64,000 nucleotides of DNA from Methanospirillum sp. (GTDB taxonomy: Archaea; Halobacteriota; Methanomicrobia; Methanomicrobiales; Methanospirillaceae), in contig JAAYEG010000040.1 of NCBI GenBank assembly GCA_012728895.1, forward strand, positions 1 through 64,000, in the 5' to 3' direction. Below are positions 21,129-25,006 of the stretch, piece by piece. The notes under the pieces were generated by a model, which was not told where the DNA came from, searched no databases, and was given only the letters and a program-made list of their open reading frames with translations. The translations under genes and the position numbers were made by a program. Each line of letters opens with the position of its first letter. Within the stretch, counting starts at the first letter, position 1.

Positions 21129-21695
21129 CTACACCGCGAAGAGGGAGCGGTCCCCGCCGACCGCGAGCAACCCGGACCTGACCCCCGCGTCGAGCCAGCC
21201 GTGCGCGTAGGAGCTGACCTGGACCGAGGCCTCGCAGTCGCCGCCGGCGAGGAGGGCGGCGGCCGCCCCGTGGAAGGCCCGGGCCACCGCGACGACGGTC
21301 AGCGCGGCCGCGTGCGCCGGGCTCGCGGGGTCCGGGGCCGGGCCGGCGCTCAGGGCGGCGGACCCGAGCATCGCGGCGTACCGCCGGGCCTTTTCCCCGA
21401 GCCGGGCCGCGTGCCGGCCCGGGACCGTGCCGCGGAGAAGGCCTGCGCCCGTCTCCGTGCCGTCGAGGAGGCCGAGCACCAGCGCGGCGTCGAGCCAGCC
21501 GCAGGCGTAGGCCAGGGCGGCGAGGGCGTTCACCGGGTCGTCACGCGCGGCGAAGACTGCCGCGTCCGTCCGGTACGCCCGGACCATCTCCAGGCAGTCC
21601 GAGGCGGCCGGGGCAAGGAGGGCGTCCTCCCGCACCCCCGGCCGGGCGCGGGCGAGGCAGGCGTCCAGGCGGTCGAGCGATGCGGCGACGGTCAT
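21129..21695 (-). CDS. DUF357 family protein
   Basis: 'CLEMVRAYRTDAAVFAARDDPVNALAALAYACGWLDAALVLGLL' and a second 'AALLAGGDCEASVQVSSYAHGWLDAGVRSGLL' copy. Confidence 0.82.
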   Translation of the reverse strand: MTVAASLDRLDACLARARPGVREDALLAPAASDCLEMVRAYRTDAAVFAARDDPVNALAALAYACGWLDAALVLGLLDGTETGAGLLRGTVPGRHAARLGEKARRYAAMLGSAALSAGPAPDPASPAHAAALTVVAVARAFHGAAAALLAGGDCEASVQVSSYAHGWLDAGVRSGLLAVGGDRSLFAV

Positions 21696-22441
21696 AGGCC
21701 CGCGAAGGCCTCCAGGTGTTCGCGCTCCATCACGTGGAGGTCGCCGGGCACGATCAGGACGTGCAGGGGGCCGCCGAACTCGACGGCGCGGAGACGGGCG
21801 GCGTCACCGGCCGCGACGACCGGGTCGGGCGACCCGACCCGGGAGCAGCCGACGTAGAGCGGGATCTCCTGGCCGAGCGAGGCCGCCGTCGTTCCGAGCA
21901 GGTCGAGCGCATCCGGGATCAGCATGAACCGGCCGGGCTGGATGTCGAGGTAGACCAGGGTGTGGAGCCCCCGGGAGAGGTTCTCGCCGATCACCGCGAC
22001 CGGCGAGGTCGGCCTCCAGTTCCCGTGCGGGAAGGGGAGCGAGGTCGCCGGGCCGAACCGGTAGTTCTGGAGCCCGGCGAGCCCGGCCGCAGCGGTGGCG
22101 ATCGAGGCCCCGTGCACGATCCGGGTCTCGATCCCGAGCCGGCTCGCCCGGAGCCGGAGGTCGACGTGGGTGGTCGAGACCATCGGGTCGCCCGGGACGA
22201 GGAGCACCGCGGTCCCCTCCCTGGCAGCAGCGAGCACCTCGTCGGGGCGGTTCTCGACCCCGGCGCGCGAGAGGACCGTGACCGGCTTCTTCCAGGCCGC
22301 CTCCATCTCGGCGACGCTCGCGCCGACGAGACGGGAGGTGTAGCCCTCGAGAAAGACCCGGTCCGCCTCCGCGATCGCTCGCCTGCCGCGGAGCGATACG
22401 TCCTCGAGGTCCCAGAGCCCGAGGCCGACGAAGACGAGCAG
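21692..22441 (-). CDS. dphB: Diphthine synthase; full-length frame requires a CTG start
   Basis: Minus-strand translation from 22441: (CTG)LVFVGLGLWDLEDVSLRGRRAIAEADRVFLEGYTSRLVGASVAEMEAAWKKP...VLLVPGDPMVSTTHVDL...; N-terminus matches conserved 'MLxFVGLGLWDxxDxS'; TAG immediately upstream at 22442-22444. Confidence 0.85.
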   Translation of the reverse strand: MLVFVGLGLWDLEDVSLRGRRAIAEADRVFLEGYTSRLVGASVAEMEAAWKKPVTVLSRAGVENRPDEVLAAAREGTAVLLVPGDPMVSTTHVDLRLRASRLGIETRIVHGASIATAAAGLAGLQNYRFGPATSLPFPHGNWRPTSPVAVIGENLSRGLHTLVYLDIQPGRFMLIPDALDLLGTTAASLGQEIPLYVGCSRVGSPDPVVAAGDAARLRAVEFGGPLHVLIVPGDLHVMEREHLEAFAGL

Positions 22442-22535
22442 CTAGGCCCCCCCCTGCAGGGGGCCCGCGGGCCGGGAACGGGACATGATCGGCGTAGCTG
22501 TCGCGCGGAGCCGGGATAAGCGCTTTGGTGGCCGC

Positions 22536-24389
22536 TCAGCCGAACGCGAAGTTGAAGAGCGCGCCGAAGAAGAGCCCGAGCAGGAGCGTGTAGACCGTGA
22601 TCAGGCCCGCGATCCGGGTGCCGATCTCCTGCCGCAGGACCGCGATCGTGGAGATGCACGGCACGAAGAGGGTCGAGACGAGCGCGAAGACGTAGAGCTG
22701 GAGCCCTGTCATCACGGTGTCGAGCCGGGCAGTCCCGGCGAGGACGACCAGGGTCTCGAAGGCCATCTCCTTCCGGAGGATGCCGAAGAGGAGCGCGGTC
22801 GAGGCGTACGCCGGCAGCCCCAGGACCCCCTCCGAGATCGGGGCGAAGGCCTCCTGGAACGCGGCGATCACCCCGAAGTACCCGAGCAGGCCGAGCACGA
22901 TGCTGCTGACGAGCAGGAGGGGCATCGCGATGTACAGGAACTCCTTGATCCGGAGCCAGGCCTTGAGCAGGACCAGGTCCGGACGCGGGCGGCGGAGCGG
23001 GGGCATCTCCAGGACCATCCCGAACTGGGGGCCGGGCGTGACCCGGCTCAGCACGACCCCCGTCGCCAGGATCAGCCCGAGCACGATCAGGTAGATCGAG
23101 AACGCGGCCCAGAGCGAGACGAACGAGGCGACGATCCCCGAGATGACGACCGTCCGGGCCGAGCAGGGGACCATCGTGATCAAAAAGGCGGCGATGACGC
23201 GCTCGCGCCGGGTCGAGAGAAGGCGGGTCCCCATCACGGCCGGGACGTTGCACCCGAACCCGAGCACGAGCGGGATGATCGCCTCGCCGTGGAGACCCAT
23301 CCGGTGCATGGTCCGGTCGGCCAGGAACGCGGCCCGGGACATGTACCCCGAGTCCTCGATCACCGCGAGGAGCACGTAGAACGTGAAGATGTACGGGAAG
23401 GCGATCCCGAACCCCGACTGGAGCGCGAGGCCGACGGAGACGAGCACTTCGCGGACGAGGGGGTCCAGGTCGAGCGCCGCGATGGGGTCGAGGAGCAGGA
23501 AGTCGAAGGCCTCGACGATGTACTCCTCGAGGACCCCGCCGACGATGAAGACCGCGAGCAGCATCGCGCCCAGGACGCCGACCAGGATCGGGACCCCCGG
23601 GAACGTCCGGGTCAGGAGCCGGTCGATCCCGGCGTCGGCCTCGCCGGCCGACGAGACCACCTGGTCCGCGATCGCCCGCGCCAGGTTGTGCCGGTTGGTC
23701 GCGATGATCTGGGCGGCCGACATCCGGTGGCGGCGGCCGATCTCCTTGCTCACGTCGTCGGCCGACTCCAGGAGATCGGGGTCGTCGCCGAGCCCCTGGA
23801 GGGCCTGGAGGGCGGTGCGGCGGTCGATCCCGAAGGACCGCCCGAGCGAGTGGACGGCGGCCTCGACGTGGTTGTCGTACGGGACCTCGACCGAGGCGGG
23901 CCGGGCCTCCAGGAGGGCGGAGGGGAGGATCCGGTCGATCCCCTGCCCGGTCGCCGCCGATGTCGCGACCACGGGGATCCCGAGCAGCTCCCCGAGCCGC
24001 GCGGTGTCGACCGAGATCCCGCGGCGGACCGCCTCGTCGGTCATGTTCACGACCGCCAGCATGGGCCGGCCGTACTCGGCGACCTGGAGGAGGAGGTAGA
24101 GGGTCCGCTCGAGCCGGGTCGCGTCGAGCACGGCCACGAGCGTCGTCATCTCGTCGTCCTCGACGATCCGCCGGATCAGGGTGTCGGTCTCGGCCCCGTC
24201 CTCGAGCGAGTAGACGCCGGGCAGGTCCACGACCTCGACCCGCTCGCGCTGCCAGCAGGAGGAGCCCGAGAAGAGGTCGACCGACGAGCCGGGGTAGTTG
24301 CCGACCTCGACCCCGACCCCGGTCAGCTGGCTGAAGATCAGCGACTTGCCGACCCCGGGGTTGCCGACGAGCGCGACCTTCAGCGGCAT
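22536..24389 (-). CDS. feoB: Ferrous iron transport protein B
   Basis: 'MPLKVALVGNPGVGKSLIFSQLTG', 'VEVVDLPGVYSL', 'VLGFGCNVPAVMGTRLLSTRRERVIAAFLITMVPCSARTVV'. Confidence 0.95.
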   Translation of the reverse strand: MPLKVALVGNPGVGKSLIFSQLTGVGVEVGNYPGSSVDLFSGSSCWQRERVEVVDLPGVYSLEDGAETDTLIRRIVEDDEMTTLVAVLDATRLERTLYLLLQVAEYGRPMLAVVNMTDEAVRRGISVDTARLGELLGIPVVATSAATGQGIDRILPSALLEARPASVEVPYDNHVEAAVHSLGRSFGIDRRTALQALQGLGDDPDLLESADDVSKEIGRRHRMSAAQIIATNRHNLARAIADQVVSSAGEADAGIDRLLTRTFPGVPILVGVLGAMLLAVFIVGGVLEEYIVEAFDFLLLDPIAALDLDPLVREVLVSVGLALQSGFGIAFPYIFTFYVLLAVIEDSGYMSRAAFLADRTMHRMGLHGEAIIPLVLGFGCNVPAVMGTRLLSTRRERVIAAFLITMVPCSARTVVISGIVASFVSLWAAFSIYLIVLGLILATGVVLSRVTPGPQFGMVLEMPPLRRPRPDLVLLKAWLRIKEFLYIAMPLLLVSSIVLGLLGYFGVIAAFQEAFAPISEGVLGLPAYASTALLFGILRKEMAFETLVVLAGTARLDTVMTGLQLYVFALVSTLFVPCISTIAVLRQEIGTRIAGLITVYTLLLGLFFGALFNFAFG

Positions 24390-25006
24390 GGGGACGCGAG
24401 CACCGTCTCTGCACACTCGGGCGAGAGCCCGATCTCGCAGCCCTTGACCTCGATCACCACGGCCCGGTTCGAGAGCCGGCGCCGGACCACGACCTCCTCG
24501 CCCGGCACGACCCCCATGTCCATGAGCCGCCTGAACCTCCCGCACGGCCGGACGTACGTGATCCGGACCCGTTCGCCCTCGAGGAAGTCGAGCAGGGGCT
24601 GCCCCTCGCCCGCCGGGACCGTGCACGGGCGCTCGAAGGGCCTCGGGCAGCGGAGGTGGCCGGCGATCCGCGCGATCGCCTCGTCCGAGACCCCGTGCTC
24701 GAGCGTGCAGGCCTCGCGGTCCGCGGCCTCCCGCTCCATCCCGATCTGCTCAAAAAAGCAGGCGAGGGTCCGGTGCCGGCGGGCGATCCGGCGCGCGACC
24801 CGCCTGCCCTCGTGATTGAGCCCGTACCGCCCGCCGGGGCCGGGTTCCAGCCGTCCGTTCGTGACCGCTCTCTGGAGGAGCCTCTCGAACGCGTCCGCGT
24901 CGAGCCCGAGCCGGGCCGCCAGCGCCGCGTCGTCGGGACGGGGCTCCTCGAGCAGGGCCTCGAGCAGGTCCTCCTCGTGGTCCCGTGACTCCTCCGTCAT
25001 CGTCAT
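24380..25006 (-). CDS. DtxR-type metal-dependent regulator with C-terminal FeoA/SH3-like domain
   Basis: 'RRVARRIARRHRTLACFFEQIGMEREAADREACTLEHGVSDEAIARI'; 'RFRRLMDMGVVPGEEVVVRRRLSNRAVVIEVKGCEIGLSPECAETVLA'; overlaps the feoB start. Confidence 0.88.
   Translation of the reverse strand: MTMTEESRDHEEDLLEALLEEPRPDDAALAARLGLDADAFERLLQRAVTNGRLEPGPGGRYGLNHEGRRVARRIARRHRTLACFFEQIGMEREAADREACTLEHGVSDEAIARIAGHLRCPRPFERPCTVPAGEGQPLLDFLEGERVRITYVRPCGRFRRLMDMGVVPGEEVVVRRRLSNRAVVIEVKGCEIGLSPECAETVLASPCR

Follow-up and report, generated by a model that had tools for sequence, protein, structure and literature searches.

A probable CTG start codon behind a genus-conserved leader ORF in the diphthine synthase gene of a Methanospirillum sp.

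Start codons that deviate from the canonical set and start codons that abut a stop codon have both been described in archaea. The LeuA-type paralogue HVO_1510 of Haloferax volcanii and its orthologues combine a conserved N-terminus with start-codon problems; an in-frame CTG start has been proposed, a relative carries upstream in-frame stops, and an out-of-frame ATG with slippage is an alternative (PMC8305020). Both Haloferax and E. coli provide documented cases of termination–reinitiation at nearby starts (PMC6728339, PMC10666635); for one E. coli gene pair, reinitiation needs no more of the upstream gene than its final 15 nt (PMC10666635). Such coupled pairs overlap or abut within −8 to +6 nt and carry a Shine–Dalgarno (SD)-like tract within the upstream ORF (PMC6728339, PMC10666635). 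Further, Ribo-seq of Methanosarcina mazei yielded uORFs and leaderless sORFs of a methanogen, including small ORFs in 5′ UTRs, and 5% of the unannotated sORFs start with CTG (PMC11456600). Switches of a start codon to CUG are rare, with 1 of 5,080 from GUG and 2 of 61,358 from AUG (PMC5622118).

The dph5 (dphB) gene of Methanospirillum sp., located in a contig stretch of 64,000 nt that was analysed as a whole (the window), shares traits with each of these systems. Like HVO_1510, it has a conserved N-terminus that reaches upstream of any canonical start, a CTG in frame, and an upstream stop. In contrast, peptides were found upstream of the first alternative start of HVO_1510, whereas dph5 and its leader ORF in the window are known from sequence alone, and the single ATG upstream of dph5 is in frame rather than out of frame. 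The leader–dph5 pair falls into the distance range of coupled genes (about −8 to +6 nt) and has a G8 tract, putatively SD-like, inside the upstream ORF, but differs from known pairs in its upstream ORF of 9–14 codons in the genus, its distance of 0 instead of the common −4/−1, and its CTG start. The leader also resembles the small 5′ UTR ORFs of M. mazei; the main text of that study mentions no diphthamide gene (PMC11456600).

The product read from CTG, LLVFVGLGLWDLEDVSL, matches the TIGR00522 equivalog model with 253.8 bits (cut-off 114.3) over model positions 1–256 of 258, and the solved archaeal diphthine synthases (PDB 2p5c, 1vhv, 1wng) align with it from residue 1 or 2 through residue 248. 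Compared with these, homology is full length and the start codon is the sole difference; by homology, the protein would be a diphthine synthase acting on aEF2. The source genome, a draft metagenome-assembled genome (MAG) of 80 contigs and about 95% completeness, holds this single dph5. The frame is open throughout, with neither a frameshift nor a stray stop, and the gene is not broken. Moreover, the pathway partner Dph2 is present and intact in the genome, which counts in favour of an intact dph5.

Table 1. Positions of the features at and around the dph5 start in the window.
Feature	Positions	Strand	Remarks
dph5/dphB, diphthine synthase	21692..22441	−	249 codons from CTG 22441–22439 plus stop; TIGR00522, PF00590
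CTG at conserved start position	22439..22441	−	GTG in L002 and L111, ATG in L003–L005
TAG, leader ORF stop	22442..22444	−	TAG or TGA in relatives
Leader ORF ATG...TAG, MSRSRPAGPLQGGA	22442..22486	−	abuts dph5 start; a corresponding ORF in each of the 6 dph5-carrying genus members
G8 tract, SD-like	22447..22454	−	5 nt before CTG; role putative
Promoter-like block CCACCAAAGCGCTTAT	22516..22531	−	alignment and motif scan; promoter role putative
First canonical in-frame ATG, chosen by mechanical ORF calling	22304..22306	−	would lose 45 conserved codons
feoB, upstream gene	22536..24626	−	TIGR00437, 431 bits; start as mechanically listed
DUF357 gene	21129..21695	−	PF04010; overlaps dph5 stop by 4 nt (ATGA)

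Around the start, the minus-strand codons are ...GGG GGG GCC TAG CTG CTC GTC TTC GTC GGC CTC GGG CTC TGG. The original prediction had placed the conserved N-terminus in frame at this CTG, with TAG immediately before it, and had noted that no in-frame ATG, GTG, or TTG precedes ATG 22306, so that the supplied ORF track truncates the protein. The codons can be read directly as described, the ATG lies 45 codons downstream of CTG, and the mechanical list indeed begins there and gives only 204 aa. The first 44 codons are 77–86% identical to those of relatives and display dN values of 0.10–0.17 against dS values of 0.30–0.64; they are constrained as much as, or more than, the rest of dph5. This purifying selection shows at the sequence level that the first 44 codons are translated.

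Comparing the dphB start codons of close relatives, a check suggested with the original prediction, locates the anomaly. Among seven genomes sampled from the genus, six carry dph5 (window included). The window reads TAG CTG, its nearest relative TAG GTG (G005, locus L002), and three others TGA ATG (G003, G004, and G006), while the fifth relative reads TGA A GTG (G001, locus L111 on contig C14). A stop codon thus abuts the start in four of the five relatives, with a stop-to-start distance of 0 in five genus members and of +1 nt in L111, where leader and dph5 consequently differ in frame, unlike in the rest of the genus; G001 is a fragmented MAG, and its out-of-frame leader is taken with some caution. 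From these start sites, the stop codon is a feature of the genus, and what sets the window apart is confined to the initial base of the start codon. By alignment, the anomaly comes down to C22441 alone, a position occupied by G or A in the relatives.

The stop belongs to a short leader ORF. Between the feoB stop (22537) and CTG, the sole ATG, GTG, or TTG is the ATG at 22486–22484, which shares the frame of dph5, with TAG alone between them. In all six genus members with dph5, an ATG opens an ORF of 9–14 codons; in 5/6 its end touches the start of dph5, and in L111 it falls a single base short. Since TAG terminates this genus-conserved ORF, it is not damage. The leader stop is kept in the genus despite the alternation between TAG and TGA, and the leaders of the window and its nearest relative differ in length by 15 nt, a multiple of three that keeps the frame. 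The encoded peptides (MSRSRPAGPLQGGA in the window, MSLSPRGAV, MSLSPQGAI, MNTNRIALCPAGGA, MNTNRTGLDPAPEA, and MNTNRVCPETTEGA) diverge and are conserved in close pairs only, which we count against the preferred explanation. We likewise count against it that the pattern in the genus goes back to a single ancestral event and does not represent six independent ones.

The original prediction had noted a C8 run (G8 on the coding strand) at about 22446–22453; the run exists, one base further along and inside the leader (Table 1). Relatives are G-rich or have GGAG where the window has G8, so every genus member has a G-tract at the spacing of an SD. Strict 4-mers of GGAGGTGATC near the start are confined to L004 and L005 within the genus, the window having G8 instead. 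Pairing between CCCCC and GGGGG is predicted around the dph5 start. Nevertheless, overall folding there is not stronger than in shuffled sequences (z = +1.26), which speaks against the preferred explanation and led us to reject an SD-sequestering hairpin.

Upstream of the leader, the short spacer between feoB and dph5 contains a block, CCaCCaAAGCsCTTAT, conserved in 6/6 members. It ends 27–29 nt ahead of the leader ATG: 29 nt in the window and 27 nt in L003–L005. Archaeal TATA elements are centred about 26 nt before the transcription start. Given this spacing and the position of the block, transcription would start at, or only a few nucleotides from, the leader ATG. A motif scan of ORF starts returned only a small excess at −30, tRNA upstream regions being uninformative as promoter controls. 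The block at 22516–22531 (minus strand) holds the conserved sequence CCACCAAAGCSCTTAT, and a second conserved block, AGCTTCGGCG, lies right before the leader ATG.

Taken together, dph5 probably starts at CTG, just after a leader ORF that the genus conserves: the CTG occupies the homologous position, no canonical alternative exists, and the N-terminus is conserved. The explanation we favour, with confidence somewhat above even, is that dph5 is intact and translated from a weak CTG start behind the leader ORF, by leader coupling and/or the G-tract; the CTG would be a derived start, one substitution away from the GTG or ATG of relatives. The leader would be translated, and its ribosome would stop with the dph5 start as the next codon and the G-rich, SD-like tract just behind. 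This ribosome could then reinitiate at CTG; alternatively, it might melt local structure so that another ribosome binds. A leader-delivered ribosome with G8 behind it offers a plausible route to using a weak CTG. We infer all four elements of this scheme, namely the promoter, leader translation, reinitiation, and decoding of the CTG by initiator tRNA. CTG initiation had been the core of the original prediction and, backed by the relatives' starts and N-terminal selection, stands as the best reading, while the role of TAG as a leader stop had been missed. Against the explanation we favour, expression from CUG in E. coli reaches just 0.86% of that from AUG (PMC11497404), and a Sulfolobus gene pair that meets at UGAGUG and contains an internal SD was uncoupled in vitro (PMC6728339).

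The latter pair also lends weight to a variant that shares the CTG start and differs on coupling alone: the leader ORF may be a by-product, with the G-rich tract, which every genus member has at an SD-like spacing, recruiting ribosomes straight to CTG and the stop and ATG having no role. We regard this as possible but on the unlikely side. Speaking against it are the retention of the leader stop, the frame-preserving length change and, across the wider order, a surplus of short ORFs at dph5 that is limited to one frame. We compiled 85 non-redundant dph5 loci (representatives) from Methanomicrobiales outside the genus and compared them with 500 rounds of Markov resampling. Elsewhere in the order, just 2 of 101 unique loci have a stop codon that immediately precedes dph5. 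ATGs 30–50 nt upstream whose frame ends at the TGA within ATGCTGA number 29 against 14.1 expected, and those with an open frame at −50 to −30 number 25 against 8.4 ± 3.1; none of the 500 resamplings reached either value. The remaining two frames hold 10 and 12 ATGs in this interval, with 4 open in each. Of the 25 open ORFs, 14 have an SD-type 4-mer at a proper upstream distance, versus a background of 26%. A +1-frame short ORF overlaps the dph5 start in 23/85 loci (about a quarter), three times chance. Since the loci are related, this excess is support rather than proof. The dph2 control (1 upstream ATG in 31) is weak because the dph2 start adjoins the end of the upstream gene in most species. 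The short +1-frame ORFs lie about 35–47 nt upstream of dph5, often with an SD, and run into ATGCTGA, and their peptides are not conserved (L010–L012, L061, L065, L082, L085, L086, L090, L100, L106, L110, and others).

The leader ORFs at dph5 suggest, from sequence comparison, a translational control of diphthamide synthesis, an idea that is testable. A broader scenario, which we consider speculative and rather unlikely, is that Methanomicrobiales keep a short leader ORF free of sequence constraint, with its stop abutting or overlapping the dph5 start. Output of this EF2-modifying enzyme would then hinge on leader translation and in that way sense how the translation machinery is doing, and coupling would have let the window start decay to CTG.

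The main rival to a CTG start is a wrong base call. If C22441 were a base-call or assembly error and the true codon GTG or ATG, start and protein would be ordinary and the leader ORF would still be real; we rate this as unlikely, though not negligibly so. A single substitution gives back GTG, the start codon of the nearest relative; other window genes with a clearly aligned start use ATG. Besides the draft state of the genome, the sequence context is difficult, with G8 and the inverted repeat GGCCCCCTGCAGGGGGGGGCC shortly before the base. Conversely, consensus errors are rare in assembled contigs, and around the base, dph5 contains neither a frameshift nor a stray stop. The original prediction had warned of a sequencing error at the homopolymer. 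As the G8 run is located 5′ of both TAG and CTG, they are immune to an indel within it, which would alter only the frame in which the leader is read; a homopolymer indel is thereby ruled out as the cause, and the warning holds only in the form of a substitution error. Only a substitution at C22441 would give a normal start. A second genome of the species was sought among the genus genomes and was not found, and a search of viral contigs for a second record of the species gave no match.

Readthrough of TAG from ATG 22486 would yield a 264-residue protein, MSRSRPAGPLQGGA-X-LLVFVGLG..., made conceivable by the shared frame with TAG alone intervening. We consider it very improbable, because TGA occurs beside TAG among the relatives, the G001 leader and dph5 are in different frames and could not be joined, and no PylS was found: a search of the genome (about 95% complete) gave only aaRS-like matches below the curated cut-off. 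Pyrrolysine readthrough was rejected on these grounds. The lack of conservation in the leader peptides points the same way. Even less credible is initiation at ATG 22306, by which the protein would be 45 residues shorter at its N-terminus. Although this is the first canonical start codon, the 44 codons ahead of it are under purifying selection, the solved structures align from residue 1 or 2, and the N-terminal strand and GLGLWD motif, found in all relatives and solved structures, would be lost. An out-of-frame start with slippage, as considered for HVO_1510, is not available, since the sole upstream ATG, GTG, or TTG is already in frame 0 and a single slip from it loses the dph5 frame.

In practical terms, gene callers would cut 45 residues off this dph5. 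If the CTG is real, the locus represents a natural, evolutionarily traceable switch from GTG or ATG to CTG in an archaeon, beside a stop codon, and lends itself to a clean test: do ribosomes that reinitiate accept starts that de novo initiation rejects?

At the other end of the gene, the dph5 stop and the DUF357 start overlap as ATGA (21692–21695), and through this overlap the next operon junction also has a coupling geometry. On the upstream side, feoB, whose true start is probably further in than listed, also neighbours dph5 in L111, L113, and L114. Further upstream of feoB and dph5, at 24380–25006 (minus strand), an iron-dependent-repressor C domain is fused with FeoA, and the order repressor-C/FeoA fusion, feoB, dph5 is common to the genus.
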